In this document: piece by piece, positions 1 to 64,000 of the stretch
How positions within the stretch are numbered: the stretch's first letter is position 1
Layout: the number at the start of each line of letters is the position of its first letter
Source: Urechis unicinctus
Lineage: Eukaryota > Annelida > Polychaeta > Xenopneusta > Urechidae
Assembly (NCBI GenBank): GCA_034190875.2
Contig: CM067348.1
Location: forward strand, 26,740,475-26,804,474
Reading direction: 5' to 3'
Length of the DNA stretch: 64,000 bases
The notes under the pieces: generated by a model
Told to the model about the DNA's origin: nothing
The model's input: only the letters and a program-made list of their open reading frames with translations
The model's database searches: none
Program-made: the position numbers and the translations under genes

Positions 1-184
1 CAGCGGCTACAGCAAACACACACCGAATTATGATGTCAAACCACATGTGCAAATACACATGCTAGGTTTCAGATGGGTACTTCAGAATATAGTAGTTTCA
101 GTATATAGGTAACGAGACTCAACGATGAAATGTGGTGTATAACATTATTCTGACATTGTCAATTAACAGCAAACGGTGCTACAC

Positions 185-2421
185 CTTCCGACATAACATT
201 GCTGTATAATTTGTGGATCATTTGATCATCAACCAGGATGTAATTCTACTGTTTAGGGTTCATGTCAAATGAATGGCTTATTCTAATGTCACAAAAGAGC
301 CAATAAAGTGAAGGAACAGAATAAAATGACCTACTGCCATCACCTGTAAGCAGAGAGCTGCCATCCGTCGGTCGCAGTTCATTTGCATATGTAACTGCAG
401 AACACATACACATGGTTTTGTTTCGTTATAGATAATACAGAAGAGACTAAAATGGGTATTAATCTATTAAGTGCGTGATAAATCAGGCTTTTTGTGCTCA
501 ACCATTTGTCGTTATGGGTAATATGTTATTCCATAGCAGGTTTGCAACGTACTTAGTGTGTGTTGTACTCAACTCCTTCTCACATTGAGTTATGTTATTC
601 CATAGCGTGTTGTACTCACCTTGTTCACACACAGGAGGATATCTATTCCCAGAGCAAGCTACGGACTCCCACTGACCAGTACTCAGCTCCACAACAGCGC
701 AGTCATGACTTGTGATGGGATGGCCTGTTTTCCAGTTGTTGTATTTCATATGACCAAGAACTGGGCCTAGTTTGTAAGATCATAAAATTTTACACAATGT
801 GATAACAGTACAAATAAGCGACGATAGGCGAAACAACTGTTGTGGTTAGAAGAATCTCTCCCCAACACGTCCACATATCAGACATTCGTACCATTAACAA
901 CATCTTTCCAAACCCACAGCTGGTTTGTGACGTCTATCCAGTATGTAATTTCGGTTGGAATTCCTGCCAGGCTGCCGTTTAGGATGCCACTGTTCTCAGG
1001 GTTTATGTTCACAGAGAGTAGATCGCTGTTGAAGTCTACAGCACAGTAATATCGGGCTGTGTACCAGTTGGCCGCTGATCTCGCACCGACAACAGCACAC
1101 ATGTCCTCTACTAGTGTTCCTGGACATGTTCCACCTGGATGAAAAGGAATCGAATACACGACGGAATACTTTTGTGCTCCAATAAAGTTGCAATATAATC
1201 TGCTGTATAATATGTACAACTTACTTGGTGAGCAAGAAAATGTTAGCAATAAATATTTTGCTCGGAATGTTAGCACGAACATAAAACGATATGATATTCT
1301 AATACGGATATAATACAGTTATCATGGAATTATCTGAACTCATGTCTTAATATAATATAGCTTGATGAACATTAAAGCTGGAATAGGACGGACACCACTA
1401 TCATACCCATGTCATTACATCCGTTAATCAGTGCATTTATTTTTGCACGTGCCCACCAGTAAACTCACAATCTCCCATTCAATAACTCATAGTTCAGAAA
1501 TGTGTGGAAATGACATTATGTGATACTGAACAAATCTCGATCAACAGTTTATCCATCAAACTTTAAAAACCAAGGTTGAGTACTCAATGAACATGGTGAA
1601 GCGTGATTAAATTAATCTATATGCATGTCACTCTTCAGGAAATGTATTGGGTGGAAATTACTTAAAACCTAAAACATTTCAATGAAACGGCTTATCCGTC
1701 AAACTCTAACGGGACACACAGGCTTATCCAAGTGGTGAAGCGTGATTAAATTCGTTAAGCACATTCAAATATATGTATGTTAACCTTTTGATGTCCAGTT
1801 TCGTCCACATAGATATCCGTGAGTTTCGTCACACTTGCCCGACTTGAAGCCATCACGCGTGCTAAACATAGCACAGTCATTACCGGTGGAAACAAGTGTA
1901 CCTTTGTAATACTCTTGTGCGTCCACTGTCGTGCTGGCATGAATCCATTTTCCATACTTGATCAGACGCAGACGGATCCAAGCTTGACCAGCACGTTCTG
2001 TTGTTAATAAAACATTCACATTTGCATTGTCTATGATGGCCAGACTGGAGTTGTTAGTAGTGGCACAAATGTCCACAGCTGCCGGCCTATTTTTTTTGCT
2101 GCTTCTCCGTCATGATATGTAAAACATCGTTTTCGTGCGCCATCCTGTTTACATCCCAACGAGATTTCCTCCATACTGACTGACGTGACCAGAAGTATCA
2201 CAACCAAGAATACCACATTTTCAAATTTGTCACCGAAATACATTTCGTTCTCATTTGCCTATATCCTGCTGTCAACTTACCCCTCATTTACCGCTTCCTG
2301 TGTACACCTCACTACGCAGTTACACAATCAGTAATCCTCGAGGTACGTCGTAAGGGCTGTTTCCCTCGTACAGCCTATGTTCTTCCATAAGAGCACGAAT
2401 GACCCAAATATGCCACTCACC
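185..2421 (-). pseudogene. a1: C-type-lectin-like receptor, 5' part only (gene runs off the left edge), frameshifted in CTLD1
   Basis: First alpha copy; its transmembrane and tail exons lie left of the window. Exons seen: non-coding 5' exon with donor ending at 2421 (GAG|GTGAGT), CTLD1 1785-2243 with signal peptide, CTLD2 first half 892-1134, CTLD2 second half 620-766, third-domain exon 185-394. The CTLD2 exons are open and keep the phase-1 junctions of the family. CTLD1 is one base short of a3 in a T-run near 2090 (8 T instead of 9), which shifts the frame after about residue 50; the downstream half (CATTNNSSLAIIDNANVN onward) is otherwise normal. This could be a real inactivating change or a homopolymer consensus error. 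A 1.6-kb insertion (2452-4075) separates the 5' exon from the usual upstream sequence. Confidence 0.75.
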
Positions 2422-2446
2422 TCAATGCATACACTCGTTTAAAGGC

Positions 2447-4080: not shown

Positions 4081-4131
4081 TCACGGGATTGGCAGCGCGA
4101 TAGGCGATGTGTCGACGAATGTTTTAAAGTT

Positions 4132-5403: not shown

Positions 5404-6021
5404 ATTCAAGAAAGGGTCTGACCCTGAAGATGGGCATAAGTGTGGTTTACTGACACCGTCGACGTCCTCGTATTGACGCAGGTCTTCATAAAGAGGAACA
5501 TCTTGCAGAAATGTATCTTTCTTATATTCAGCATAAACATATGATGATGAAGCATGTTCGACACAAGTAAACTGACGGTAAGATACGTGTACGGATGACA
5601 TGTGCTGTTTTTTAGCTGACGTCATGAGACGATGATCATTGCTTCGCCGAGACCAATTTCCTACGACCACAGTCATGTAAACATTAGGAATATATAAATG
5701 CATTGAATTGGGAAAAAAAGGGTTATTTCCTAATTATGCATCGATTCAATATGAAGATTGAATGATGGTGAAAATAGCCATAACATACGTTAATCAGTAC
5801 ATTTATTTTTGCTAACCATCAATAGTTCAGATATGTATCGAAATAACATTATTTGAAACTGAACAAATCTCGATCAAGGCTTATCCATCAATCTTTTACA
5901 ATGGGTCACACTTAAAATCAAGGTTTAGAACTCAATGAACATGGCGAAGTGATATTAAATTAATCTAAAACGTAAACGTATATGCATAATACTCTGCTGC
6001 GTCTTCTGTCGTGCTGGCGTG

Positions 6022-6097
6022 TGAAGTGATCGTAAGACGGAGTATTTATTCCCATTTTCCACATGTGTGCCTCCGCACATAAAGTAGTATTACAACA
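6022..6097 (-). repeat. 3' LTR of element A
   Basis: 76 bp, TG...CA on either strand, preceded on the minus strand by the polypurine tract. On the minus strand it contains AATAAA, a plausible polyadenylation signal. Confidence 0.85.
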
Positions 6098-6349
6098 TCT
6101 CCCTCTTTTTGAAATTAACTAACAATGTTTTTTATTAAAAAAACTTGAATAAAAATTTGTTCTTAACAGTTGGCTTATTGGTATGTAACTCAAAAAAAAC
6201 AACGTAGGTATGGGACTGTGGTCCTCTAATAAACTTGGTAAGTATAGTTAGGCGTCTGCAAAACGAATCGGTCGGCTGCTACGACCTGACGACTTGTTCG
6301 CTGGTACCTAATGGTTTTTGGTTGACAAATCATCTTTGCGTTGTTGATA

Positions 6350-7546
6350 GTTTGTTACGCATACGGAATCTTTGTACCGGCACATGATGTCCATACCTCC
6401 CAAGCATATGATGGTTGTATCGTCTGTAGGCAACGAAGCTTTGCTTTGACTGGCTGTGGATGCGTGATCTCCAGTCATCACCATACATTTGCTTGATGGT
6501 GCGGAGAGGCAGGGTACTTGCCCCCGGCTCCGGTTGTCAATCTTCAGTCGGAGTTGCATCACTCCTAGTAGGTCTGGACGCATGATATCAATGGTTGTGA
6601 ATGCCTCGTTTTTCGATTTTGTGTCAGTGGCGGTCGCATCTGACACGGTGATGGAGTAAAAAACACTCCCTCTGAGGGGTCATCACTGAGATTGGCCGGG
6701 TTGTCCTCCCAAGCTTGTTCAGCATTGGCATCATTGTCATCGGTCACGTGGTCCCACCTTCCTATTGGTACAGTACCCCATGCTATCTCTTGGGTTGCGC
6801 GAAGTTGACCAGCTGCGCTTTGGTGATTCGCTGCGTGGTATCATGGAGGACCTGTTTTGGCATTGTTTGATCTTAGTCTTCCTGCCTATTTTGCCCAGTG
6901 GCCCTTTGCGCCGCAAGATTTGCACGTGTCTATTACATGCTGGGCATCTGCGTGGCGGATGGGAGAGGCCGCAATTGGAGCCAGCTCTTTTTGGCTGGCG
7001 TATGGCATCTACAGCTGTATTGCTAGCAGCGTTGTCTAGGGTCTGTAGACATTTTTGGCTCGCCGCCACGGCTTCGTATTTGCCTCTATCCTTTAAAAGC
7101 GTGAATCCGTTCGGTTTGTGAAGAAGGTCTTTCTGGAAAGCCTCAAAGGGCGTTGATGCAACCACCAGCTCTAGCACATGTTCAGTTAAGCTTGCAAGGC
7201 TAGAAATCGCACTGTTTGGCCTTTTCGCGGCACCTCGTGACAAATAAAACTAGGGGTTCACTTTGTTTCTGCTTGTATCTCATTAACTCTAATCTATGAA
7301 TTCGAAAATTAACTTTGACCATTAATTGGTCTTCAAACAGTAGGTCATTTAGTATCATCAGTTAAGCCTGATGAGTTTATCATTTTTCAGTCCTTCGTTG
7401 TCCACTGCAATCTTTATCTTCACTGAAGTTTTCTTGTTGTCAACAACTTCGTTGTCCAGCAGGCACAGGGACAAACGCTGTTTGAAACGTTTGAACTCCT
7501 CTGGCAAGTCTGCTGCGTCCCAACACATTTCCGGGTATTTCGGCAT
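6350..7546 (-). pseudogene. gag: gag-protease remnant of element A
   Basis: The N-terminus starts MPKYPEMCWDAADLPEEF at 7546. A second frame (6737-7243) covers the capsid C-terminal part. The zinc-knuckle region reads out of frame here because of indels relative to copy B (near 6885 and 6932), and the protease DTGA motif is also shifted. The frame is cut several times, so no functional product is expected. Plus-strand ORFs over this region are antisense shadows. Confidence 0.7.
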
Positions 7547-8113
7547 GGTGAACTGGTAGCTAGTCTATGGTGCACAGTTCTGGTCGGCGGAGTGATATAT
7601 ATCTTCAGGTTGCTCGGTGACACCATGTGCGTAGTGATACAGTCAAAGGTCAAACACACTTTTGCTGTTAGAAATACCGAGCAGTTAACTTCTGCGTAGT
7701 TATGTATCCCTACGCGTCGTTGCAACACAGGAAATCTTTATTCTTGGCAAGGTTTAGCTGGGTTACGCTCGTCGTCGTACGGCGAATCTGGGTAGGCAAC
7801 GATAGGTAGACCTCGTAGCGTAGACCATAGACCTCCGTATGGTACGCGGCCGTCGTGGTGGCGCACCGTTGGCTTCGGTGGATGCTATGTACAGCGTTAG
7901 TGGTCGCTGTGCTCAGCACGCAGTCTGGGCTGCTCCTCGTGACAAGTATTTGTTGTCGGTCTTCCTCACAGTTATTGGTGATTGGTGAAAAATCTCTGGC
8001 CTTAAGTCGACGAGTTTGCTGTTCTCGGGCGATGGTCGATTGTGACCGCTTATCGGTCACTATCCGAAATTATGAGTTTGAAGCGATATTTGTAGCCTTT
8101 TCGGCTGCCACCA

Positions 8114-8189
8114 TGAAGTGATCGTAAGACAGAGTATTTATTCCCAACTTCCACATGTGTGCCTCGGCACATAAAGTAGTATTACAACA
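8114..8189 (-). repeat. 5' LTR of element A
   Basis: 76 bp, differing from its partner LTR at a few positions. The primer-binding site lies at 8096-8113 on the minus strand, directly adjacent. Confidence 0.85.
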
Positions 8190-8330
8190 GCGTGGATCCA
8201 TTTAACATAATTAACCCGACTTGGATGGATCCAAACTGGACTTCGGTATCCTGTCGTCACTTAACCATTCACATTGGCATTATCTATGACGGCCAGACTT
8301 GCGTTGTTATATGCTGCACACGAAGCAGTG

Positions 8331-11644: not shown

Positions 11645-12118
11645 GTTCGACACAAGTAAACTGACGGTAAGATACGTGTACGGATGACATGTGCTGTTTT
11701 TAGCTGACGTCATGAGACGATGATCATTGCTTCGCCGAGACCAATTTCCTACGACCACAGTCATGTAAACATTAGGAATATATAAATGCATTGAATTGGG
11801 AAAAAAGGGTTATTTCCTAATTATGCATCGACTCAATATGAAGAATGAATGATGGTGAAAATAGCCATAACATACGTTAATCAGTACATTTATTTTTGCT
11901 CATGCCCATTCAATAACTCATAGTTCAGATATGTATCGAAATAACATTATTTGAAACTGAACAAATCTCGATCAAGGCTTATCCATCAATCTTTTACAAT
12001 GGGTCACACTTAAATCAAGGTTTAGAACTCAATGAACATGGCGAAGTGATATTAAATTAATCTAAAACGTAAACGTATATGCATAATACTCTGCTGCGTC
12101 TTCTGTCGTGCTGGCGTG

Positions 12119-12194
12119 TGAAGTGATCGTAAGACGGAGTATTTATTCCCATTTTCCACATGTGTGCCTCCGCACATAAAGTAGTATTACAACA
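12119..12194 (-). repeat. 3' LTR of element B
   Basis: 76-bp terminal repeat abutting the polypurine tract (plus-strand TCTCCCTCTTTTT at 12195-12207). Confidence 0.85.
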
Positions 12195-12418
12195 TCTCCC
12201 TCTTTTTGAAATTAACTAACAATGTTTTTTTATTAAAAAGAAACTTGAATAAAAATTTGTTTCTTAACAGTTGGCTTATTGGTATGTAACTCAAAAAACA
12301 ACGTAGGTATGGACTGTGGTCCTCTAATAAACTTGCTAAGTATAGTTAGGCGTCTGCAAAACGAATCGGTCGGCTGCTAGTACGACCTGACCTAATGACA
12401 AATATCTCGTTGTTTAGA

Positions 12419-13598
12419 CCATACGGAATCTTTGTACCGGCACATGATGTCCATACCTCCCAAGCATATGATGGTTGTATCATTGTAGGCAGTAAGCTTT
12501 GCTTTGACTGGCTGGATGCGTGATCTCCAGTCATCACCATACATTTGCTTGATGGTGCGGAGAGGCAGGGTACTAGCCCCGGCTCCGGTGTCAATCTTCA
12601 GTCGGAGTTGCATCACTCCTAGTAGGTCTGGACGCATGATATCAATGGTTGTGAATGCCTCGTTTTTCGATTTTGTGTCAGTGGCGGTCGCATCTGACAC
12701 GGTGATGGAGTAAAACACTCCCTCTGAGGGGTCATCACTTAGATTGGCCGGGTTGTCCTCCCAAGCTTGTTCAGCATTGGCATCATTGTCATCGGTCACG
12801 TGGTCTACCTTCCTGTTGGTACAGTACCCCATGCTATCTCTTGGGTTGCGCGAAGTTGACCAGCTGCGCTTTGGTGATTCGCTGCGTGGTATCATGGAGG
12901 ACCTGTTTTGGCATTGTTTGATCTTAGTCTTCCTGCAATATTTTGCCCAGTGGCCCTTTGCGCCGCAAGATTTGCACGTGTCATTACATGCTGGGCATCT
13001 GCGTGGCGGATGGGAGAGGCCGCAATTGGAGCCAGCTCTTTTTGGCTGGCGTATGGCATCTACAGCTGTATTGCTAGCAGCGTTGTCTAGGGTCTGTAGA
13101 CATTTTTGGCTCGCCGCCACGGCTTCGTATTTGCCTCTATCCTTTAAAAGCGTGAATCCGTTCGGTTTGTGAAGAAGGTCTTTCTGGAAAGCCTCAAAGG
13201 GCGTTGATGCAACCACCAGCTCTAGCACATGTTCAGTTAAGCTTGCAAGGCTAGAAATCGCACTGTTTGGCCTTTTCGCGGCACCTCGTGACAAATAAAA
13301 CTAGGGGTTCACTTTGTTTCTGCTTGTATCTCATTAACTCTAATCTATGAATTCGAAAATTAACTTTGACCATTAATTGGTCTTCAAACAGTAGGTCATT
13401 TAGTTCATAATCAGTTAAGCCTGATGAGTTTATCATTTTCAGTCCTTCGTTGTCCACTGCAATCTTTATCTTCACTGAAGTTTTCTTGTTGTCAACAACT
13501 TCGTTGTCCAGCAGGCACAGGGACAAACGCTGTTTGAAACGTTTGAACTCCTCTGGCAAGTCTGCTGCGTCCCAACACATTTCCGGGTATTTCGGCAT
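12419..13598 (-). pseudogene. gag: gag-protease remnant of element B
   Basis: The first frame 13251-13598 is the capsid N-terminal part and ends at TAG after KQCDF. The second (12392-13294) continues as capsid C-terminal half, then a CCHC zinc knuckle (CKSCGAKGHWAKYC) and the aspartic protease start with DTGA. The TAG is also in element E, where the downstream frame is otherwise in register; in B an extra A near 13238 adds a frameshift. The product would be a truncated Gag. The reading frame stops soon after the protease because the rest of pol is deleted. Confidence 0.8.
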
Positions 13599-14171
13599 GG
13601 TGAACTGGTAGCTAGTCTATGGTGCACAGTTCTGGTCGGCGGAGTGATATATATCTTCAGGTTGCTCGGTGACACACCATGTGCGTAGTGATACAGTCAA
13701 AGGTCAATCACACTTTTGCTGTTAGAAATACCGAGCAGTTAACTTCTGCGTAGTTATGTATCCCTACGCGTCGTTGCAACACAGGAAATCTTTATTCTTG
13801 GCAAGGTTTAGCTGGGTTACGCTCGTCGTTGTACGGCGAATCTGGGTAGGCAACGATAGGTAGACCTCGTAGCGTAGACCATAGACCTCCGTATGGTACG
13901 CGGCCGTCGTGGTGGCGCACCGTTGGCTTCGGTGGATGCTATGTACAGCGTTAGTGGTCGCTGTGCTCAGCACGTAGTCTGGGCTGCTCCTCGTGACAAG
14001 TATTTGTTGTCGGTCTTCTGACTCACAGTTATTGGTGATTGGTGAAAAATCTCTGGCCTTAAGTCGACGAGTTGCTGTTCTCGGGCTGATGGTCGATTGT
14101 GACCGCTTATCGGTCACTAGGCCGAAATTATGAGTTTGAAGCGATATTTGTAGCCTTTTCGGCTGCCACCA

Positions 14172-14247
14172 TGAAGTGATCGTAAGACAGAGTATTTATT
14201 CCCAACTTCCACATGTGTGCCTCCGCACATAAAGTAGTATTACAACA
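14172..14247 (-). repeat. 5' LTR of element B
   Basis: 76 bp; followed on the minus strand by the tRNA-Leu-like primer-binding site (TGGTGGCAGC). Confidence 0.85.
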
Positions 14248-14385
14248 GCGTGGATCCATTTAACATAATTAACCCGACTTGGATGGATCCAAACTGGACT
14301 TCGGTATCCTGTCGTCACTAAACCATTCACATTGGCATTATCTATGACGGCCAGACTTGCGTTGTTATATGCTGCACACGAAGCA

Positions 14386-17852: not shown

Positions 17853-20800
17853 TCAAGAAAGGGTCTGACCCTGAAGAAGCGCATACTGTGTTTGACCGGC
17901 ACCATTGACGTTCTCATACTGACGTAGGTCTTCATAAGGCTGGGAATCACCTTGAAGAGGAGGGGCATCTTGTTGAAATGTATCGTTCTCATATTCACCA
18001 TTGATTTTTGATGATGAAGCATTTGCGGCACCAGTGAGCTGGGGGTTAGATACGTGTACGGATGACATGTGCTGATTGTTCCTGACTTCATGAGACGCTG
18101 ATGGTTGCTTTGCTGGCTTCTTAGCCGAGCCCAATGCCCTACGATCACAGTCATGTAAACATTGGGAATATAAATACATTGAATTGGAAAAAGGGTTATA
18201 TTCTGATTATCCATAGATTGAAAGTTTGGAAGGGATGTTGGTAAAAATTACTTGCCTCTTGTAATGAATTAATGCAACGATGGAAGCAGCAGCAACGAGG
18301 CAGGCAACAACAGCCACAGTGTAGGCCACAATGACTGTGAACAAGTTGAAGCAGAACATCATATACACATGAACACTTTTGATATTGTTGTCTTTACACT
18401 TCACATATTGAGCTTTGTAAGGGCTAATTGTTGGTTTGAAAAATGTTACTTACAGTACGAGTAGTGCCAACATTAAAATACTGGCTTATAACATAACTGG
18501 TGGAAAAGTTATAAGCACTGCCAGTATTGCTAACATTCCATAACTGGTTAATAAATTGATAAATGATGACAGAAGTGTACACTGTCGACTGAACCGCTCG
18601 AGAAATCATCTTCAAAAAACTGAAACGAAGTTTATTCTAATGAAGAAAGATTTGCGAAATACATTTTAGGCAGTCAGGATAAGCAATGAGAGGACAAGGA
18701 TTTTATATATCACCATGTGTATCAACATTCGGTTGAATGTTTGCTGTTGTTGTCAGATGAAAGGTTGAGTCAGCGGCTACAGCACACACACACCGAATTA
18801 TGAAGTCAAACCACATGTGCAAATACACATGCTATGTTTCAGATGGGTACTTCAGAATATAGTAGTTTCAGTATATAGGTAACGAGACTCAACGATGAAA
18901 TGTGGTGTATAACATTATTCTGACATTGTCAATTAACAGCAAACGGTGCTACACCTCCCGACATAACATTGCTGTATAATTTGTGGATCATTAGATCATC
19001 AACCAGGATGTAATTGTAATGTTTAGGGTTCATGTCAAATGAATGGCTTATTCTAATGTCACAAAGAGCCAATAAAGTGAAGGAACAGAATAAAATGACC
19101 TACTGCCATCACCTGTAAACAGAGAGCTGCCATCCGTTGGTCTCAGTTCATTTGCATATGTAACTGCAGAGCACATACAAATGGCTTTGTTTCGTTATAG
19201 ATAATACAGACGAGACTAAAATGGGCATTTATTCAGTGAGTGATAAAACAGGCTTTTTGTGCTCAACCATTTGTCGTTATGGGTAATATGTTATTCCGTA
19301 GCAGGTTGGCAACGTACTTAGTGTGTGTTGTACTCAACTCCTTCTCACATTGAGTTATGTTATTCCATAGTATGTTGTACTCACCTTGTTCACACACAGG
19401 AGGATATCGATTTCCTTGGCAAGCTACGGACTCCCACTGACCAGTACTCAGCTCAACAACAGCGCAGTCATGCCTTGTGATGGGATGGTCTGTTTTCCAG
19501 TTGTTGTATTTCATATGACCAAGAACTGTGTCTAGTTTGTAAGATCACAAAATATTGTACAATGTGATAACAGTACAAATAAGGGACGATAGACGAAACA
19601 ATTGCTGTGGTTGGCAGAATCTCTCCCCAACACGCCCACATATCAGACATTCGTACCATTAATGCCATTCTTCCACACCCACAGCTGGTTTGTGACGTCC
19701 ATCCAGTATGTACTTTCATTTGGACTGCCTGACAGGCTGCCGTTTAGGATGTCACTGTACTCGGGGTAGTAGGTCCTCAGACAGTAGATCGCTGTTGTGG
19801 TTTACAGCACAGTTATACCGGGCTGTGTACCAGTTGGCTGCTGATCCCGCACCGACAGTGGCACACATGTCCCCTACAATCGTCCCTGGACACGTTCCAT
19901 CTGGATGAAATGGAATTGTATACGCGATAATTCAATTTTATGCACCCATAAAGTTGCAGTGCGTCATTGGGCACATACTCTGGTGCTGAATATGTAATAA
20001 CCACCTGAAGAGCAAGAAAACGTTAGCAACAAATATTTAGCGTAGGATGCTACCACGAACATGGAACGATATTACGTTGTTATGCGAATCCAATATAGTT
20101 ATTACTAGATATTCTGATCTCATGTAGTAATATAATGGGGTTCGGTTGATGTTCAATCAGAAATAGGAAAGACATCATCATCACCCCCTTGTCACCACAG
20201 CCGTTAATCTTTCTTGCGCATGCCTATCAATCAACTCGGTTTTGTGTGGCTATTAACCACTGTCACACATTCATTGACTCATAGTTCAGATATGTCTGGG
20301 ATTAATGTTATTTGAAACAAAACAAATCTTGATTTATGAGACGGATTATCCATTAAACCATTGGAACGGGTCAAACTTAAAAGCAAGGGTGAGAAACTCA
20401 ATGAACATGGCGAAGCAAGATAAGATAAATGTTAACCTTTTGATGTCCAGCTTCTTCCACATAGATATCCATGAGTATTCGTCACATTTGCCCGACTTGA
20501 AGCCATCACGTGTGCTGAACATAGCACAGTCATTACCATAGAAAACAAGTGTATCTTTGTAATACTCTGTGCGTCCTCTGTCGTGCTGGCGTGGATCCAT
20601 CTATCATAATTGATCAGACGCAGGCGAATCCAAGCTTGACCAGCACGTTCTGTTGTTAATAAAACATTCACATTTGCATTGTCTATGACGGCCAGACTTG
20701 AGTTGTTAGTAGTGGCACAAAAGTCCACAGCTGCCGGCCTAATAGTGTTTGCTGCTTCTCCGTCATGATATGTAAAACATCGTTCTCTCGCGCCATCCTG

Positions 20801-21037
20801 TAAGCATCCCAACGATACTTCCTCCGTGCTGACTGACGTCACCAGCAATATCACAACCCAGGATAGCACTATGACAAACATGTCACCACAAGCCATTTTT
20901 AGCTTGTTGCGAATGCACCCACACAACACAGTTACAAAATCGGTAATCCTCAAGGTACGCGATAAGTATTGTTTCGTCGTACTTCTTTCCAAATCTTCTA
21001 CCATTAAAGCACGAATGAAAAAATAATCCAACTCACC
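17853..21037 (-). pseudogene. a2: C-type-lectin-like receptor, all exons present but frameshifted
   Basis: Exons: 5' UTR exon donor at 21037, CTLD1 20437-20896, CTLD2 19657-19900 and 19385-19531, third domain 18955-19163, 18464 to about 18616, transmembrane 18256-18398, tail 17853-18138. CTLD1 has a one-base loss near 20571 and a one-base gain near 20473, so about 100 bases between them read in the wrong frame and two cysteines of the domain are lost. CTLD2 has one extra base near 19770 (244 instead of 243 nt), giving an early stop. The tail is intact (YENDTF, YEDLRQYENV, YALL). It is very close to a7 in sequence. Probably non-functional unless these indels are consensus errors. Confidence 0.8.
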
Positions 21038-21560: not shown

Positions 21561-21752
21561 TCGTCCACATAGATACCAATGAGCCTCGTCACACTTGCCC
21601 GACTTAAAGCCATCACGCGTGCTAAACATAGCACTGTCATTACCGTGGAAAACAAGTGTACCTTCATAATGCTCTGCTTCCTCTGTCGTGCTAGCATGGA
21701 TCCATTTATTATATTTGATCCGACGCAGACAGAACCAAGCTTGACCAGCACT
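21560..21752 (-). pseudogene. orphan CTLD1 3' fragment
   Basis: Matches the last third of the CTLD1 exon (KWIHAS..., NDCAMFSTRDGFKSG-type sequence in broken frame) without its flanking exons. It lies upstream of the a2 5' duplications and is joined to the usual upstream region at about 21750. A recombination remnant. Confidence 0.65.
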
Positions 21753-45999: not shown

Positions 46000-47280
46000 T
46001 TCAAGAAAGGGTCTGACCCTGAAGATGGGCATAAGTGTGGTTTATTGACACCGTCGACGTCCTCGTATTGACGCAGGTCTTCATAAAGAGGAATATCTTG
46101 CAGAAATGTATCTTTCTTATATTTAGCATAAACATATGATGATGAAGCATGTTCGTCACAAGTAAACTGAGGGTAAGATACATGTACGGATGACATGTGC
46201 TGTTTTTTACTGACGTCATGAGACGATGATCATTGCTTCGCCGAGAACAATTTCCTACGATCACAGTCATGTAAACATTAGGAATATATAAATGCATTGA
46301 ATTGGGAAAAAAGGGTTATATCCTAATTATGCATCGATTCAATATGAAGAATGAATGATGGTGAAAATAGCCATAACATACGTTAATCAGTACATTTATT
46401 TTTGCTCATGCCCATTCAATAACTCATAGTTCAGATATGTATCGAAATAATATTATTTGAAACTGAACAAATCTCGATCAAGGCTTATCCATCAATCTTT
46501 TACAATGGGTCACACTTAAAATCAAGGTTTAGAACTCAATGAACATGGCGAAGTGATATTAAATTAATCTAAAACGTAAACGTATATGCATAATACTCTG
46601 CTGCGTCTTCTGTCGTGCTGGCGTGTGAAGTGATCGTAAGACGGAGTATTTATTCCCATTTTCCACATGTGTGCCTCCGCACATAAAGTAGTATTACAAC
46701 ACCTCCCTCTTTTTGAAATTAACTAACAATGTTTTTAATTCGAAAGAAACTTGAGTAAACATTTTTTCTTAACAGTTGGCTTATTGGTATGTAACTCAAA
46801 AAACAACGTAGGTATGGACTGTGGTCCTCTAATAAACTTGGTAAGTATAGTTAGACGCATGCAAAACGAATCGGTCGGCTGCTAGTACGACCTGACCTAG
46901 TGGTGACTTGTGTCGGAGTTTATTCCCAACTTCCACATGTATGCCTCCGCACATAAAGTAGTATTACAACAGCGTGGATCCATTTAACATAATTAACCCG
47001 ACTCGGATGGATCCAAACTGTACTTCGGTATCCTGTCGTCACTAAACCATTCACATTGGCATTATCTATGACGGTCAGACTTGCGTTGTTATATGCTGCA
47101 CAAAAAATCAGCACTTTCAGGACTATATAGACGTGCGGCTAGTTCGTCGCAATAAGTAAAACATTGTTCTCTGGCGCCATCCTATAAGCATCCCAACGAG
47201 ACTTCCTCCGTGTTAACTGACGTCACCAGGAATATAACAACCCAGAATACCACATTTACACACATGTCACCGAAATACAT
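46000..47280 (-). pseudogene. b4: receptor pseudogene with nearly emptied LTR element
   Basis: The tail remnant 46000-46260 (YKKDTF, YEDLRQYEDV) is followed by the shared deletion. CTLD1 is split by element D and resumes at 46972 (WIHA, VNYVK, DNANVN, FCAAYNN), reaching the signal peptide ATG at 47280. As in b3, the alpha-type 5' exon and kB region are missing upstream. Confidence 0.8.
46626..46971 (-). mobile_element. LTR element D: same insertion, interior almost gone
   Basis: Left LTR 46626-46701 intact with GCGTG before it (46621-46625). Right LTR truncated, about 46914-46971, followed by GCGTG (46972-46976). Only about 210 bp of 3'-proximal interior remain. It is not a simple solo LTR, because both LTR ends and both target repeats persist; a deletion from interior into the 5' LTR explains it. 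Confidence 0.82.
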
Positions 47281-51396: not shown

Positions 51397-54300
51397 TCAA
51401 GAAAGGATCTGACCCTGAAGTTGCGCATACTGTGTTTGACCGGCACCGTTGACGTCCTCATACTGACGTAGGTCTTCATAAGCCTGGGAATCACCTTGAA
51501 GAGGAGAGACATCATGCTGAAATGTATCGTTCTCATATTCAGCATTGATATTTGACGATGAAGCATTAGCGGCACCAGTGTGCTGGGGGCTAGATACGTG
51601 TACGGATGACATGTGCTGATTGTTCCTGAGTTCATGAGACGCTGATGGTTGCTTTGCTGGATTCGTAGCCGAGGCCAATGCCCTACGATCACAGTCATTT
51701 AAACATAGGGAATATAAATACATTGAATCGGAAAAAGGGTTATTTTCTGATTATCCATAGATTGAAAGTTTGGAAGGGATGTTGGTAAAAACTGCAGTGG
51801 ACTTGCCTCTTGTAATGAATTAATGCAATGATGGAAACAGCAGCGACGAGGCAAGCAACAACAGCCACGGTGTAGGCCACAATGACTGCGAGCAAGTTGA
51901 AGCAGAACATCATATGACCACATGAACACTTTTGATATCGTTGTCTTTACACTTCACATATTGAGGTACTTTAAGGAACCTCAGGGCTAATTATTGGTTG
52001 GAAAATGTTACTAAGAGTATGAGTAGTTCCACATTATATTACTGGCTGATAACATAACTGGTGGAAAAAGGTTATAAGCAATACCAGTATTACTATCATT
52101 ACATAACTGGTTAATAATTCGATGAATGATGTAAGAAGTGTACACTGTTGACTGAACCGTTCGAGAAATCATCTTCAAAAAATCATTGATTTAGTTGATG
52201 CTAATGGAAAAGGTTTGAGAAAATCATTTCAGTCAATCAGGATAAGCAACGCGAGGAAAAGGATTTCAGATATCACCATGTGTGTCAACATTCTGTTGAA
52301 TGTTTCCTGTTGATGTGGTCAGATGGAAGGTTTGGTATTTGGCTACAGCACACACACCGAATTAAGAAGTCATACCTCATGTGAAAAAACACATGCTAGG
52401 TTGCATATAGGTATCTAAGAATATAGTAGTTTCAGGTATTGATAAAATTTGGTGTACAACTTCGTTCTGAAAGAGTCAATTAATAGAACACGGTGCGACT
52501 CCTCCCGGCGTTATGTTGCTGGATGATTTTAAGATCATGAGGTTACCAACAGGGGTGCAATGGTACTGTTTTGGGCCCATGTCAAATGAATGGTTCATAT
52601 GAATGTCACAAAGCGAAATAACACAATATGAAAACATACCATCATCACTAGTAATCAGGAAGCTGTCATCGGTCGTTTGCTGTGGATTTGCATATGTAAC
52701 TGCAGAGCACATACAAATTGCGTTGCATCGCAATAAATATTACAGAAAATACTAAATTTGGCATAAATGTTTTCAATAAGTAGTAAATCAGGCGTTTAGT
52801 GCTGAACTCGTTCTCCTAATGGGTAATATGTTATTCGAAAGCAGTCTCAACTCGTACTGGGTGTGTGCTGTATTCACTTTTCTCACACACAGGCGTATAA
52901 TTATTTCCAGAGTAAGTGATCAACTTTTTCAAACTAATAAAGAATCATTCACGATTGTAGAGTGTTAGTATGCTCAACTCACCTTGTTCACACACAGGAG
53001 GATACTTATTCCCTGAGCAAGCGACGGACTTCCATTGACCAGTACTCAGCTCCACAACAGCGCAGTCATGCCTTGTGATGGGATGGCCTGTTTTCCAGTT
53101 GTTGTATTTCATATGACCAAGAACTGGGCCTACTTTGTAAGATCACAAAAAATCACACAATGTAATAACAGTACAAATAAGCGACGATAGGCGAAACAAC
53201 TGTTGTGGTTAGAAGAATCTCTCCCCAACACGTCCACTTATTAGACATTCGTACCATTTACGTTATCTTTCCACACCCACAGCTGGTTTGTGACGTCTAT
53301 CCAGTATGTACTTCCTGTTGGACTTCCTGCCAGGCTGCCGTTTAGAATGTCACTGAACTCGGGGTTTATGTCCACAGAGAGTAGATCGCTGTTGTGGTCT
53401 ACAGCACAGTAATACCGGGCTGTGTACCAGTTGGCCGCGGATCTCGCACCGACAACAGCACACATGTCCCCTACAAGCGTCCCTGGACACGTTCCACCTG
53501 GATGAATTGGAATCGAATACGCGATTGAAAATTTTTATGCACCCATAAAGTTGCTGTGGGTCATTGGGAGCATAATATGTAACAATTACATATGAGCAAG
53601 AATATGTTTGCAACATATATTTAGAGTGAGACGTTGGCACGAGCATGAAACGATATAACATTCTAATGCGAATATAATACAGTTATTATGGGATTATCTC
53701 CTAATAAAATATGGCATGATGAACATTAAAATGGAATAGGACGGACACCATTAACTTATCTTCCTCATGTTATTACATTCGTTAATCAGTACATTGATTT
53801 TTGCTCATGCTCACCAGTAAACTCACAATCTCCCATTCAATAACTCATAGTTCAGAAATGTGTGGAAATAACATTATTTGAAACTGAATCAATCTCGATC
53901 AACAGCTTATCCATCAAACTTTTAAAATCAAGGTTGAGTACTCAATAAACATGGTGAAGCGTGATTAAATAAATATATATGCATGTCAACCTTCAGGAAA
54001 TGTATTGGGTGGAAATTACTTAAAACCTAAAATATTTTTATCAATGAAACGGCTTATCCGTCAAACTTCCAACAGGACACACTTACAGGCAAAGAAGAAA
54101 ACCTTATCCAAGTGGCAGAGCGTGATTAAATTCGTTAAGCATATTCAGATATATGTATGTTAACCTTTTGATGTCCAGTTTCGTCCACATAGATATCCGT
54201 GAGTTTCGTCACACATGCCCGACTTGAAGCCATCACGCGTGCTAAACATTGCGCAGTCATTACCGTGGAAAATAAGCGAATCTTTGTAATACTCTTGTGC

Positions 54301-54853
54301 GTCCTCTGTCGTGCTGGCGTGGATCCATCTATCATACTTGATCAGACGCAGACGGATCCAAGCTTGACCAGCACTTCCTGTGTTTAATAAAACATTCACG
54401 TTGGCATTGTCTATGATGGCCAGACTTGAGTCGTTAGTAGTGGCACAAATGTCCACTGCTGCCGGCTTTAATAGTTTTGCTGCTTCTCCGTCATGATATG
54501 TAAAACATCGTTTTCGTGCGCCATCCTGTAAGCATCCCAACGAGACTTCCTCCATCCTGACTGACATCACCAGAAGTAACACAACCCAGAATACCACATT
54601 TACAACTATGTCACCAAAATACATTTCGTTCTCATTTGCCTATATCCTGCTGTCAACTTAGACCTCATTTACCGCTTCCTGTGTACACATAAGCGCGAGA
54701 TTGATGAAGGATTTCAATTGAATCTGTTGCAATTTGATCCTCACTACACAGTTACACAATCAGTAATCCTCGAGGTACGTCGTAAGGGTTGTTCCTCTCG
54801 TACAGCCTATGTTCTTCCATAAGAGCAGGAATGACCCAAATATGCCACTCACC
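51397..54853 (-). pseudogene. a6: C-type-lectin-like receptor, intact ectodomain exons but broken 3' half
   Basis: Exons: 5' exon donor 54853, CTLD1 54165-54624 (open, six cysteines), CTLD2 53255-53497 and 52983-53129 (open), third domain about 52501-52699, a damaged exon 52030-52180, transmembrane 51807-51951, tail 51397-51682. Breaks: the third-domain donor is GGGAG|GAG instead of GGAG|GTG; the next exon has W to C and an extra base; the transmembrane exon has two extra bases (145 nt) that shift the frame. The tail itself is intact (YENDTF, YEDLRQYEDV, YAQL). The 52200-52960 part is far more diverged than its flanks and carries a second, decayed CTLD2 fragment at 52790-52925: a mosaic copy. 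It might still make a secreted two-CTLD form. Confidence 0.75.
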
Positions 54854-56215: not shown

Positions 56216-57167
56216 TCTTCGTGACTCAGATGATCACAGAATATCACAGTACAAGCCCAAGATCATCAAGCCCACCATTATCGATTAAAATATATACTGA
56301 CGTATGTACAATTCGTAAACCTGCAACACAATATCGCTCATATACCCCCAGTTTATACTTAGCGCGAAATAATTAATTCAAAGTACAATGGTACAAGCTA
56401 CAAGAGCGGCATTGCCTATCGATTTATACATGCCTGCAAGAAGAACAAGTGGATCAAGAAATCGTTTGAATTGGGGTCAGATATAAAAATCCTTGCACCA
56501 ATAATCTCTTCTATATAACTGGAAATGGAAGTGCTTTTTATCCAAGAAAGGGGTCTGACCCTGAAGATGGGCACAAGTGTGGTTTACTGACACCGTCGAC
56601 GTCCTCGTATTGACGCAGGTCTTCATAAAGAGGAATATCTTGCAGAAATGTATCTTTCTTATATTTAGCATAAACATATGATGATGAAGCATGTTCGTCA
56701 CAAGTAAACTGAGGGTAAGATACATGTACGGATGACATGTGCTGTTTTTTACTGACGTCATGAGACGATGATCATTGCTTCGCCGAGCCCAATTTCCTAC
56801 GACCACGGTCATGTAAACATTAGGAATATATAAATGCATTGAATTGGGAAAAAAGGGTTATTTCCTAATTATGCATCGACTCAATATGAAGAATGAATGA
56901 TGGTGAAAATAGCCATAACATACGTTAATCAGTACATTTATTTTTGCTCATGCCCATTCAATAACTCATAGTTCAGATATGTATCGAAATAACATTATTT
57001 GAAACTGAACAAATCTCGATCAAGGCTTATCCATCAATCTTTTACAATGGGTCACACTTAAAATCAAGGTTTAGAACTCAATGAACATGGCGAAGTGATA
57101 TTAAATTAATCTAAAACGTAAACGTATATGCATAATACTCTGCTGCGTCTTCTGTCGTGCTGGCGTG

Positions 57168-57243
57168 TGAAGTGATCGTAAGACGGAGTATTTATTCCCA
57201 TTTTCCACATGTGTGCCTCCGCACATAAAGTAGTATTACAACA
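57168..57243 (-). repeat. 3' LTR of element E
   Basis: 76 bp; polypurine tract adjacent at 57244-57256 (minus-strand AAAAAGAGGGAGA). Confidence 0.85.
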
Positions 57244-57466
57244 TCTCCCTCTTTTTGAAATTAACTAACAATGTTTTTTATTAAAAAGAAACTTGAATAA
57301 AAATTTGTTTCTTAACAGTTGGCTTATTGGTATGTAACTCAAAAAACAACGTAGGTATGGACTGTGGTCCTCTAATAAACTTGGTAAGTATAGTTAGGCG
57401 TCTGCAAAACGAATCGGTCGGCTGCTAGTACGACCTGACCTAATGACAAACATCTCGTTGTTTAGA

Positions 57467-58660
57467 CCATACGGAATCTTTGTACCGGCACATGATGTCC
57501 ATACCTCCCAAGCATATGATGGTTGTATCATTGTAGGCAGTAAGCTTTGCTTTGACTGGCTGGATGCGTGATCTCCAGTCATCACCATACATTTGCTTGA
57601 TGGTGCAGAGAGGCAGGGTACTAGCCCCGGCTCCGGTGTCAATCTTCAGTCGGAGTTGCATCACTCCTAGTAGGTCTGGACGCATGATATCAATGGTTGT
57701 GAATGCCTCGTTTTTCGATTTTGTGTCAGTGGCGGTCGCATCTGACACGGTGATGGAGTAAAACACTCCCTCTGAGGGGTCATCACTTAGATTGGCCGGG
57801 TTGTCCTCCCAAGCTTGTTCAGCATTGGCATCATTGTCATCGGTCACGTGGTCCACCTTCCTATTGGTACAGTACCCCGTGCTATCTCTTGGGTTGCGCG
57901 AAGTTGACCAGCTGCGCTTTGGTGATTTGCTTCGTGGTATCATGGAGGACCTGTTTTGGCATTGCTTGATCTTAGTCTTCCTGCAATATTTTGCCCAGTG
58001 GCCCTTTGCACCGCAAGATTTGCACGTGTCATTACATGCTGGGCATCTGCGTGGCGGATGGGAGAGGCCGCAATTGGAGCCAGCTCTTTTTGGCTGGCGT
58101 ATGGCATCTACAGCTGTATTGCTAGCAGCGTTGTCTAGGGTCTGTAGACATGTTTGGCTCGTCGCCACGGCTTTGTATTTGCGTCCATTGCTTAAAAGCG
58201 TGAATCCGTTCAGTCTGTGAAGGAGGTCTTTCTGGAAAGCCTCAAAGGGCGTTGATGCAACCACCAGCTCTAGCACATGTTCAGTAAGCTTGCAAGGCTA
58301 GAAATCGCACTGTTTGGCCTTTTCGCGGCACCTCGTGACAAATAAAACTAGGGGTTCACTTTGTTTCTGCTTGTATCTCATTAACTCTAATCTATGAATT
58401 CGAAAATTAACTTTGACCTTTAATTGGTCTTCAAACAGTTTCCACAGTCTTTGTAGGTCATTTAGTTCATAATTAGTTAAGCCTGATGAGTTTATCATTT
58501 TCAGTCCTTCGTTGTCCACTGCAGTCTTTATCTTCACTGAAGTTTTCTTGTTGTCAACAACTTTGTTGTCCAGCAGGCACAGGGACAAACACTGTTTGAA
58601 ACGTTTGAACTCCTCTGGCAAGTCTGCTGCGTCCCAACACATTTCCGGGTATTTCGGCAT
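57467..58660 (-). pseudogene. gag: gag-protease remnant of element E
   Basis: The capsid N-terminal frame 58298-58660 ends at TAG after KQCDF. The following codons stay in the same frame through LTEHVLELVVASTPFEAF, the CCHC knuckle (CKSCGAKGHWAKYC) and DTGA. So the only break in the main part is one stop codon, also present in A and B. Pol after protease is missing. Confidence 0.8.
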
Positions 58661-59248
58661 GGTGAACTGGTAGCTAGTCTATGGTGCACAGTTCTGGTCG
58701 GCAGAGTGATATATATCTTCAGGTTGCTCGGTGACACACCATGTGCGTAGTGATACAGTCAAATGTCAAACACAGTTTTGCTGTTGGAAATACCGAGCAG
58801 TTAACTTCTGCGTAGTATTGTATCCCTACGCGTCGTTGCAACACAGGAAATCTTTATTCTTGGCAAGGTTTAGCTGGGTTATGCTCGTCGTTGTACGGCG
58901 AATCTGGGTAGTCAATGATAGGTAGGCCTCGTAGCGTAGACCATAGACCTCCGTATGGTACGCGGCCGTCGTGGTGGCGCACCGTTGGCTTCGGTGGATG
59001 CTATGTACAGCGTTAGTGGTCGCTGTGCTCAGCACGCAGTCTGGGCTGCTCCTTGTGCCAAGTATTTGTTGTCGGTCTTCCGACTCACAGTTATTGGTGA
59101 TCGGTGAAAAATCTCTGGCCTTAAGTCGACGAGTTGTACGGGAATAATTTGCTATTCTCGGGCTGATGGTCGATTGTGACCCCTTATCAGTCACTAGGCC
59201 GAAATTATGAGTTTGAAGCGATATTTGTAGCCTTTTCGGCTGCCACCA

Positions 59249-59324
59249 TGAAGTGATCGTAAGACAGAGTATTTATTCCCAACTTCCACATGTATGCCTC
59301 CGCACATAAAGTAGTATTACAACA
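59249..59324 (-). repeat. 5' LTR of element E
   Basis: 76 bp; the minus-strand primer-binding site TGGTGGCAGC directly follows it (59239-59248). Confidence 0.85.
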
Positions 59325-59636
59325 GCGTGGATCCATTTAACATAATTAACCCGACTTGGATGGATCCAAACTGCAATTCGGTATCCTGTCGTCACTAAAC
59401 CATTCACATTGGCATTATCTATGACGGCCAGACTTGCGTTGTTATATGCTGCACAAAAGCTGCAGCTTCAGGACTATATAGACGTGCGGCTAGTTCGTCG
59501 TAATAAGTAAAACATCGTTCTCTCGCGCCATCCTATAAGCATCCCAACGAGACTTCCTCCGTGTTAACTGACATCACCAGGAATTACAACATTTTTTACA
59601 GAATACAACATTTACACACATGTCACCGAAATACAT

Positions 59637-62267: not shown

Positions 62268-63951
62268 TCAAGAAAGGGTCTGACCCTGAAGTTGCGCATA
62301 CTGTGTTTGACCGGCACCGTTGACGTCCTCATACTGACGTAGGTCTTCATAAGTCTGGGAATCACCTTGAAGAGGAGAAGCATCTTGTTGAAATGCATCG
62401 TTCTCATATTCACCATTGATATTTGATGATGAAGCATTTGCGGCACCAGTGAGCTGGGGGTTAGATAGGTGTACGGATGACATGTGCTGATTGTTCCTGA
62501 CTTCATGAGACGATGATGGTTGCTTTTCTGGCTTCGTAGCCGAGGCCAATGCCCTACGATCACAGTCATGTAAACATTGGGAATATAAATACATTGAATT
62601 GGAAAAAGGGTTATATTCTGATTATCCATAGATTGAAAGTTTGGAAGGGATGTTGGTAAAAATTACTTGCCTCTTGTAATGAATTAATGCAACGATGGAA
62701 GCAGCAGCAACGAGGCAGGCAACAACAGCCACAGTGTAGGCCACAATGACTGTGAACAAGTTGAAGCAGAACATCATATACACATGAACACTTTTGATAT
62801 TGTTGTCTTTACACTTCACATATTGAGCTTTGTAAGGGCTAATTGTTGGTTTGAAAAATGTTACTTACAGTACGAGTAGTGCCAACATTAAAATACTGGC
62901 TTATAACATAACTGGTGGAAAAGTTATAAGCACTGCCAGTATTGCTAACATTCCATAACTGGTTAATAAATTGATAAATGATGACAGAAGTGTACACTGT
63001 CGACTGGACCGTTCGAGAAATCATCTTCAAAAAAGCAGAAACTAAGATTATGCTAAAGGGAAAGATTTGCGAAATACATTTTAGGCAGTCAGGATAAGCA
63101 ATGCGAGGACAAGGATTTTATATATCACCACGTGTATCAACATTCTGTTGAATGTTTCCTGTTGTTGTTGTTGTCAGATGAAAGGTTGAGTCAGCGGCTA
63201 CAGCACACACACACCGAATTATGAAGTCAAACCACATGTGCAAATACACATGCTAGGTTTCAGATGGGTACTTCAGAATATAGTAGTTTCAGCATATATG
63301 TAACGAGACTCAACGATGAAATGTGGTGTATAACATTATTCTGACATTGTCAATTAACAGCAAACGGTGCTACACCTCCCGGCATAACATTGCTGTATAA
63401 TTTGTGGATCATTTGATCATCAACCAGGATGTAATTGTAATGTTTAGGGTTCATGTCAAATGAATGGCTTATTCTAATGTCACAAAGAGCCAATAAAGTG
63501 AAGGAACAGAATAAAATGTCCTACTGCCATCACCTGTAAACAGAGAGCTGCCATCCGTTGGTCTCAGTTCATTTGCATATGTAACTGCAGAGCACATACA
63601 AATGGCTTTGTTTCGTTATAGATAATACAGACGAGACTAAAATGGGCATTTATTCAGTGAGTGATAAAACAGGCTTTTTGTGCTCAACCATTTGTGTTAT
63701 GGGTAATATGTTATTCCGTAGCAGGTTGGCAACGTACTTAGTGTGTGTTGTACTCAACTCCTTCTCACATTGAGTTATGTTATTCCATAGCGTGTTGTAC
63801 TCACCTTGTTCACACACAGGAGGATATCGATTTCCTTGGCAAGCTACGGACTCCCACTGACCAGTACTCAGCTCAACAACAGCGCAGTCATGCCTTGTGA
63901 TGGGATGGTCTGTTTTCCAGTTGTTGTATTTCATATGACCAAGAACTGTGT
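62268..63951 (-). CDS. a7: C-type-lectin-like receptor, 3' part (gene runs off the right edge)
   Basis: Exons in the window: CTLD2 second half 63805-63951, third domain 63376-63584, 62869-63041, transmembrane 62671-62813 with GC donor, tail 62268-62553. The acceptor of the 62869-63041 exon is the same ATCTTAG|TTTC as in a3 and joins in phase. The third-domain exon is 209 nt, one base short, which breaks the frame unless the small internal GT...AG segment is removed as an intron. Tail: YENDAF, YEDLRQYEDV, YAQL. Close in sequence to a2, sharing the one-base loss. Signal peptide and CTLD1 lie beyond the edge. Confidence 0.72.
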
Positions 63952-64000
63952 CTAGTTTGTAAGATCACAAAATATTGTACAATGTGATAACAGTACAAAT

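Follow-up and report, generated by a model that had tools for sequence, protein, structure and literature searches.

The window (the whole 64,000-nucleotide stretch of DNA that was analyzed) was a section of a larger array at C7 26.41-26.84 Mb, encoding type I receptors with two tandem C-type lectin-like domains (CTLDs). Paired receptor families carry near-identical ligand-binding parts on members with different tails, and inhibitory and activating roles are established for several of them in vertebrates. That arrangement of ectodomains and tails is present here: near-identical ectodomains were found on different, putatively signaling tails. A second, unrelated transmembrane (TM) segment and tail on almost the same ectodomain, giving a type I tandem-CTLD paired architecture, is what seems to be new. 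An evenly balanced proposal is that these are putative paired receptors of a fast-turnover type I family with two signaling modules, likely with a microbial ligand.

A similarity search of the window gave seven alpha and five beta copies, all on the minus strand, in agreement with the numbers (at least seven and at least five) in a preliminary description:

1..2243, minus strand: alpha copy a1, 5' start ~2243, frameshift in CTLD1
5455..8320, minus strand: beta copy, CTLD1/tail pieces at 8320/5607, 2167-base LTR-element insert
11655..14378, minus strand: beta copy, CTLD1/tail pieces at 14378/11735, 2128-base LTR-element insert
17856..21749, minus strand: alpha copy a2, 5' start ~21749, broken, tail I open
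23510..26200, minus strand: beta copy, CTLD1/tail pieces at 26200/23701, 1821-base LTR-element insert
30286..33437, minus strand: alpha copy a3, 5' start ~33437, fully open, tail I
~33437-32979, minus strand: a3 coding piece, signal peptide and CTLD1
~32312-32073 and 31944-31801, minus strand: a3 coding pieces, CTLD2
~30762-30686, minus strand: a3 coding piece, TM
~30568-30286, minus strand: a3 coding piece, tail I, with a GC-AG intron ahead of it
36872..38131, minus strand: decayed alpha copy, CTLD1 fragments and one CTLD2 exon
41440..44390, minus strand: alpha copy a5, 5' start ~44390, fully open, tail I
46050..47280, minus strand: beta copy, CTLD1/tail pieces at 47280/46241, 345-base solo-LTR-like insert
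51400..54624, minus strand: alpha copy a6, 5' start ~54624, fully open, tail I
56592..59636, minus strand: beta copy, CTLD1/tail pieces at 59636/56783, 2156-base LTR-element insert
62271..63946, minus strand: alpha copy a7, exons 3-5 open, from ~63946

All five exons were open in three of the seven alpha copies (33437-30286, 44390-41440, and 54624-51400). The TM and tail exons of a1 were found just left of the window (L029), while exons 1-2 of a7 would fall in an all-N stretch to its right; a2 was damaged by frameshifts in CTLD1 and CTLD2 and by a partial repeat of exon 1. All five beta copies were broken and are pseudogenes with an LTR-element insert. The copy at 23510..26200 held an integrase-core piece (E = 2e-7, just under the Pfam cut-off), and in that at 56592..59636 CTLD1 was broken, a tail remnant was left, and the copy scan gave no match to CTLD2 or TM. 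In the genome, 46 CTLD1 matches (a few being pieces of one copy) reached E <= 1.2e-20, so that the array was beyond chance. Satellite copies sat elsewhere, outside the main C7 array, and distant relatives formed two arrays on the same chromosome as the main one. The copies on C780 and at C7:26417 resembled each other, and unplaced haplotypes may inflate the copy number. A search for COX1, for which controls gave matches in 8 of 14 genomes, had no match; neither did searches for molluscan hemocyanin and annelid hemoglobin-linker families, which had no positive control and thus exclude neither group.

It is very unlikely that the family consists mostly of dead or neutrally drifting duplicates, generated by repeat-driven duplication around one or two working genes. 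Such decay would fit the broken state of every beta copy in the window, the retroelement inserts, a copy number possibly inflated by unplaced haplotypes, and the finding that 7 of 54 hit groups were fully open with tail I, although fragments, the two halves of beta copies, and copies truncated at the edges of the stretches scanned are counted among the 54. On the other hand, 32 of the 46 strong CTLD1 matches spanned the full length with an open mature domain, and dN/dS was well below 1 in four of the five exons (0.47, 0.33, 0.44, and 0.32 for exons 1-4, based on 18, 21, 26, and 18 copies free of stops, a part of which belong to decaying genes); in the fifth, the tyrosine columns were held. The exon 1 set included one frameshifted copy, which was omitted in the later analysis of the CTLD1 loop. 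Three further fully open genes on C7 (26640134, 26559569, and 26418617) carried the second tail (tail II). With dN/dS well below 1 in exons 1-4, the open copies are under purifying selection, and the decaying duplicates noticed earlier were recognized as many broken copies beside these open ones.

In the product of the intact gene, a signal peptide is followed by two CTLDs, a TM helix, and a tail that contains four tyrosines; the signal peptide and TM were assigned by hydrophobic stretches in the sequence. The spliced a3 exons sum to 404 aa, and not to the 550 aa previously proposed. The same splice sites were seen again across copies, with phases of 1-1-1-2. Two coding-like blocks between exons 3 and 4 were dropped as exons because both fell within intron 3 and the splice sites fit five exons. 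For the donor that follows the TM exon, a phase-0 GT was discarded in favor of a GC-AG donor in phase 2: of 19 TM exons, 18 had GC there and one had GT at the same place. The signal-like hydrophobic start ahead of CTLD1 and the TM after CTLD2 agreed with the type I topology claimed, and Pfam scans of the exons gave no domain besides CTLD above the cut-off, with two CTLDs between the start and TM. The combination of tandem CTLDs lacking sugar-binding motifs, TM, and a YxxL/V tail could likewise be read in the intact copies, as the preliminary description had it.

Profile search and structure prediction, two of the checks proposed there, both pointed to CTLDs. CTLD2 (exons 2 and 3 joined) matched Pfam Lectin_C: E = 8.6e-12 and 46.2 bits, with a cut-off of 22.6. 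CTLD1 in the window had no Pfam match, and 29 of 45 alignment members among its relatives matched Lectin_C at E 0.01. Structure prediction for CTLD1 from an 18-row alignment reached a pLDDT of 36; in a second prediction, the best of five models had a pLDDT of 67.9 and pTM of 0.68, with a low long loop, and three of the five were below pLDDT 45. This model gave 102 PDB matches at E <= 0.001, including LLT1, CLEC5A, and CD94/NKG2A, and the best 50 of the 102 were CTLD proteins (query TM-scores of 0.53-0.62). CTLD2 by profile, and CTLD1 by its relatives and predicted fold, are members of the C-type lectin-like superfamily. Among the exon-3 copies listed, the EPN/QPD position of CTLD2 was HPI, HPD, HPN, HPL, or QPI, and the WND position was WES or a variant (WKS, WEF, or CES), with the exception of one gapped row; a motif check of CTLD1 found neither EPN/QPD nor WND. 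The canonical motifs for Ca-dependent sugar binding (EPN or QPD, plus WND) are thus absent. The long loop of CTLD1 showed a dN/dS of 0.61, versus 0.35 and 0.40 in its flanks (codon-shuffle P = 0.03); all were < 1, and no positive selection was demonstrated in CTLD1.

The tyrosine motifs of tail I were YEN, YEDL, YEDV/YLDV/YENV, and YAQL-type. Among 23 open tails (one partial; the frameshifted tail L045 was left out), all four tyrosine columns were invariant, dN/dS was 0.10 in the Y and Y+3 columns versus 0.98 in the others, and variable columns numbered 1 of 8 versus 55 of 85, respectively (Fisher p = 0.006). Since pS was low (~0.1), little change was sampled in tail I, the dN/dS of which was 0.88 as a whole. 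By these values, the tyrosines and Y+3 are constrained while the remaining tail drifts. Every tail contained three Yxx[LIV] motifs, and 22 of 23 contained YxN. Strict ITAM (Yxx[LI]-x6-12-Yxx[LI]) and strict ITIM ([SIVL]xYxx[ILV]) were each found in 0 of 23 tails, and in 23 of 23 once V was permitted at +3 and T at -2, respectively. The hemITAM pattern (in Dectin-1 and CLEC-2, one YxxL after an acidic stretch) and the strict ITSM pattern were also found in 0 of 23.

Tail II (YVRG, YAVP, and LYGQ), with its own TM, was found on copies outside the window with nearly the same ectodomain, joined via the same splice phases as tail I, with the two gene types diverging shortly beyond exon 3; it was absent from the 64-kb window. 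The YVRG, YAVP, and LYGQ tyrosines were retained in the three different tail-II sequences compared, and the tyrosine at position 22 was missing in 26554595. Tail II occupied nine places, seven of them open, and was rarer than tail I (7 versus 23 open). Homology between the two tails was rejected: no similarity was found (E = 0.63). Neither tail was present in the stretches scanned at 26518668 and 26627453.

These motifs bear on a reading that is rather unlikely, in which the proteins are endocytic or scavenger receptors and YEDL, YEDV, and YAQL are AP-2 sorting signals (YxxPhi) without phosphotyrosine signaling; internalization of bound cargo, as by mannose-receptor-like proteins, is part of it and correspondingly doubtful. 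The three Yxx[LIV] motifs in all tails, constraint on Y and Y+3 exactly as YxxPhi predicts, and the missing strict ITAM, ITIM, and hemITAM are consistent with uptake, and a clam family of type I mannose receptors with 13 genes is reported (PMC12321717). However, YEN misfits YxxPhi, as do YVRG, YAVP, and LYGQ with their retained tyrosines, and uptake alone does not readily account for one ectodomain being combined with two unrelated tails. The mannose receptor family has cysteine-rich and fibronectin II domains and many CTLDs. Although type I topology and several CTLDs are shared with it, the family described here has two CTLDs only and large arrays, and neither a cysteine-rich nor a fibronectin II domain was found in the exons scanned.

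Reassortment of ectodomains and tails was indicated by close pairs: the ectodomain of a5 was 92% identical (aa) to that of the tail-II gene at C7:26640134, and that of a3 87% identical to that of the tail-II gene at 26418617. The DNA of one tail-II gene was 94.8% identical to a3 over 1649 bases (exons 1-3), the match ending just past exon 3. In a tree of 13 open ectodomains, three changes of tail type were needed, the maximum possible with its three tail-II rows; 0% of 200 bootstrap trees had one change, and a single origin of tail II was rejected (p-AU = 8.5e-13). In a control, 500 of 500 shuffles of tail types were as low, and the tree shows that tail type fails to track the ectodomain, not how frequently moves occurred. 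The first 59 bases of a6 intron 3 (52983-52925) were 83-85% identical to tail-II genes. Intron 3 was mixed in both a6 and 26591484, a possible recombination footprint of 59 bases at this identity, and the two may go back to one single event.

In the paired-receptor explanation, array recombination would move one ectodomain cassette onto two signaling modules, by which one ligand class would trigger two outputs. Receptor clustering would lead to phosphorylation of the tails by a Src-family kinase; tail I would recruit Grb2-type and Syk/SHP-type SH2 proteins (YxN; YEDV-x7-YAQL), and tail II a Crk-type SH2 adaptor (YxxP), partners that we presume from SH2 preferences. Cells of surfaces or blood would then respond in opposing or complementary ways to a ligand, most likely microbial, that is either a rapidly changing protein or a non-canonical glycan. 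Immune use is putative, the architecture alone resembling NK receptors. A role outside immunity, as gamete, egg-coat, adhesion, or matrix receptors turning over quickly for reproduction or development, is unlikely. No sequence feature links the family to immunity, and fast gene-family turnover is also usual in reproduction; however, immune receptor families typically show tails of the signaling kind and an architecture with two tails. Furthermore, oyster transmembrane CTLs with tyrosine motifs act in hemocytes, according to two reports (PMC12842671, PMC13027682).

The NK-receptor logic of the preliminary description held in one respect beyond the reach of that description, namely the two unrelated TM segments and tails on nearly the same ectodomain; strict ITAM or ITIM was found in none of the 23 tails. 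Vertebrate NK complex receptors (NKR-P1, CD94/NKG2, and Ly49) are type II with one CTLD, and form tandem arrays with decaying duplicates, CTLDs without a sugar site, and similar ectodomains with different tails. The arrays, decay, non-sugar CTLDs, and differing tails are shared, as are the matches of the predicted CTLD1 to LLT1, CLEC5A, and CD94/NKG2A among other CTLDs, whereas the present family is type I with two CTLDs and without strict ITIM or ITAM. The sequences gave no evidence for common descent of the two architectures. The dog CEACAM1-related receptors (PMC2110893) are an example of vertebrate paired receptors. Their ectodomains consist of Ig domains, in contrast to CTLDs with tails of putative roles here.

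Transmembrane CTLs with tyrosine signaling have a precedent in oyster CgCLec-HTM and CgCLec-TM1, which signal through hemITAM and Syk-ERK (PMC12842671, PMC13027682). As far as the accessible text of these reports goes, a lectin-like ectodomain, single TM, and tail tyrosine motif are shared with both and a TM at the C-terminal side with CgCLec-HTM, the site of which is QPS/WHD; they have, however, a single CTLD and a hemITAM, whereas the present family has two CTLDs and four tail tyrosines and lacks a hemITAM. An array that comprises dozens of copies and two alternative tails is not described in that text. A literature search, with subscription journals mostly outside its reach, found no published account of a tandem-CTLD two-tail family.

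Expanded invertebrate lectin families are usually taken as pattern-recognition proteins, with little known of their signaling. If correct, the paired-receptor case would be a concrete example of paired-receptor evolution in an invertebrate, with ectodomains and tails reassorting at a fixed splice junction and selection visible on tail tyrosines, and would make it testable whether a lectin-like balance of activation and inhibition arose more than once. An origin independent of vertebrates, the cassette having moved repeatedly at the exon 3 junction to give a self-renewing repertoire with two outputs, falls slightly short of an even case. Tail II would then be the older, YxxP tail, in outline common to both arrays of distant relatives, which we hold with just under even confidence. 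The tail as a module common to many receptor types was rejected, BLAST matches being nearly all within their own families. The tail I query gave 51 genome matches: two weak ones outside the family (E above 5), a decayed relative at C7:17576029, and otherwise the tandem-CTLD family. The tail II query matched this family only (11 pieces in the nine places), and the distant-family tail gave 57 matches, 55 of which lay within its own two arrays.

Mapping with five exon queries placed seven alpha copies (a1-a7, the full receptor gene) and five broken beta copies in the window (C7:26740475-26804474, in an assembly of 1.19 Gb), all on the minus strand, in agreement with the preliminary description of at least seven and at least five copies on that strand. 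The gene model was based on splice sites common to many copies, with junction phases 1, 1, 1 and 2, and the signal peptide and transmembrane (TM) segment were called by reading the sequence rather than with a dedicated predictor:

Exon 1: signal peptide and CTLD1
Exons 2 and 3: CTLD2
Exon 4: TM
Exon 5: tail
GC-AG intron before the tail exon, in a3: window 30685-30569

Copies a3, a5 and a6 were fully open (3/7). A product of 550 aa had been expected from the a3 exons, but its pieces sum to 404 aa. Copy a7 runs into N and could not be completed because the 6 kb to the right of the window (L030, C7:26804475-26810474) are N throughout. Among 19 TM exons in the family, 18 are followed by a GC donor in the last intron; the remaining one, in a decayed copy, has GT instead at that position, and the junction before the tail exon is thereby supported. 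The GC-AG intron was common to the whole expanded family. On the plus strand, a 90-aa open frame (window 39229-39498), somewhat like an Ig-type domain by eye, had no Pfam match at E 0.01.

The proposed tandem CTLDs were borne out in both domains. CTLD2 matched Pfam Lectin_C; CTLD1 of the window did not, and its assignment was supported by structure and by an alignment with relatives, in which 29 of 45 sequences matched Lectin_C. A first CTLD1 model (18 rows) failed (pLDDT 36). With 45 rows, three of five models stayed below pLDDT 45; the top one scored pLDDT 67.9 and pTM 0.68, with low confidence in the long loop, and gave 102 structure matches at E ≤0.001, and the 50 listed were CTLD proteins with moderate query TM-scores (0.53-0.62). 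Canonical sugar motifs were found in neither CTLD1 nor CTLD2, as had been claimed.

Four copies outside the window keep exons 1-3 without the TM and tail type of the window copies (tail I), and are followed downstream by a different TM exon and tail exon (tail II); in one of them, 26633802, exon 2 is frameshifted. A fifth tail-II pair with a broken tail (26576699) follows a CTLD1 exon with a stop. Tail II, with LYGQ at its end and YVRG and YAVP within, occurred at nine genome places (seven open, none in the window). It had no similarity to tail I, and acceptor and donor phases were identical in the two gene types. Ectodomain identities were high: 92% between tail-II copy 26640134 and a5, and 87% between tail-II copy 26418617 and a3. 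At the DNA level, 26418617 matched a3 at 94.8% over 1649 bases including introns, ending about 7 bases past exon 3, and 26640134 matched a5 in the same manner (93.0% over 1407 bases). Ectodomains were not sorted by tail type: in a tree of the 13 whose exons 1, 2 and 3 were all open without a break (nine tail I, three tail II, one neither), three tail-type changes were required, which is the maximum for three tail-II rows, and label shuffles did neither better nor worse; one change sufficed in 0% of 200 bootstrap trees, and a single tail-II clade was rejected (p-AU 8.5e-13). In a6 and 26591484 (tail cut short), both with tail I downstream, 59 bases of intron 3 were tail-II-like (83-85%) and were followed by tail-I sequence; this may represent one event. 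Two different TM/tail modules therefore carry nearly the same ectodomain, with recombination as the likely mover between tails. Two further copies, L025 (C7:26627453, exon 2 frameshifted) and L014 (C7:26518668), had the CTLD1-CTLD2 ectodomain and neither tail in the scanned stretch; they are possibly secreted forms or carry a third tail.

The dN/dS values of exons 1-5, from stop-free copies, some of them out of decaying genes, were 0.47, 0.33, 0.44, 0.32 and 0.96, respectively. The long loop of CTLD1 gave 0.61 against 0.35 and 0.40 in its flanks (residues 107-123: 0.87), and no value along CTLD1 exceeded 1. Tail I appeared neutral unless the tyrosine motifs were split from the remaining columns: in a set of 23 open tails that includes a partial one and excludes a frameshifted one, dN/dS was 0.10 for the Y and Y+3 columns versus 0.98 for the other 85. 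All four tyrosine columns were invariant, and variable columns numbered 1/8 (Y, Y+3) versus 55/85 (Fisher p 0.006, the columns being not fully independent). This constraint is the strongest sign of working tail tyrosines. Across copies, mean dS fell towards the 3' end (exon 1, 0.35; exon 5, 0.09), as if this end had been homogenised more recently.

The architecture, the constraint and the nearly identical ectodomain on two tails were established at the sequence level; in the mechanism proposed, a ligand would cluster the receptors, the tails would be phosphorylated and SH2 proteins would be recruited. None of the 23 tail-I tails had a strict ITAM, ITIM, ITSM or hemITAM pattern; each had a relaxed ITAM-like pattern (YEDV-x7-YAQL type) and a T-x-Y-x-x-L pattern, and 22 had YxN. 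In tail II, YAVP fits a Crk-type SH2 site. The main rival reading, in which the tails are endocytic YxxPhi signals, accommodates three tail-I motifs, but YEN and tail II do not fit it.

Among known relatives, the C-type lectin families of bivalves are expanded and lineage-specific (PMC10140915), and haemocytes of the oyster have transmembrane lectins whose hemITAM signalling is reported to run via Syk and ERK (PMC12842671, PMC13027682). Expanded bivalve 'P-selectin' genes are dominated by CCP domains (PMC9484242) and thus differ from the tandem-CTLD family. No account of arrayed tandem-CTLD genes that differ in their tails turned up in the literature searched, which is weak evidence.

What remains of the gene in each beta copy is part of CTLD1 and part of the tail, with no CTLD2 or TM match in exon-query mapping. 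One CTLD1 site holds an LTR-element insert with TG...CA ends and a flanking 5-base repeat (by eye from junctions); four inserts are 1.8-2.2 kb and one is 345 bases:

Window 57168-59323: LTR-element insert
Window 46626-46970: LTR-element insert (345 bases), looks like a solo LTR
Window 24070-25890: LTR-element insert
Window 12119-14246: LTR-element insert
Window 6022-8188: LTR-element insert

Because the site was the same in all five beta copies, the element was probably copied along with the units. Element pieces in the window gave matches to zinc knuckle (E 0.007-0.010, under the cut-off) and integrase core (E 2e-7, just under the cut-off).

In the genome, CTLD1 had 46 matches at E ≤1.2e-20, 32 of them full-length and open across the mature domain by our count (C7:26760912 excluded for a frameshift):

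C7 26.41-26.84 Mb: CTLD1 matches
C7 9.85-9.91 Mb: CTLD1 matches
C3 53.88-53.93 Mb: CTLD1 matches
Contigs C845 and C780: CTLD1 matches

Some copies may be unplaced haplotypes. In the fetched stretches, which cover part of the array, 7/54 hit groups were fully open with tail I, the 54 including fragments and copies cut by stretch edges. Distant relatives (CTLD1 identity about 27-37%) fill C7 12.20-12.62 and 17.24-17.68 Mb, arrays that may be copies of each other. The two loci read (L034 and L035) share the domain order of the window family, with a Ser/Thr stalk added between the two-exon CTLD2 and the TM; a tyrosine tail follows, and the CTLD1 exon was observed in L034 only. Their tail had some similarity to tail II (E 7e-5, two-sequence comparison), and the identity classes of matches suggest that these arrays also hold more than one tail variant. 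Elsewhere, C2:9843946-9845457 (L001, L004-L006) contained an open frame of 552 aa in which Lectin_C matched strongly four times.
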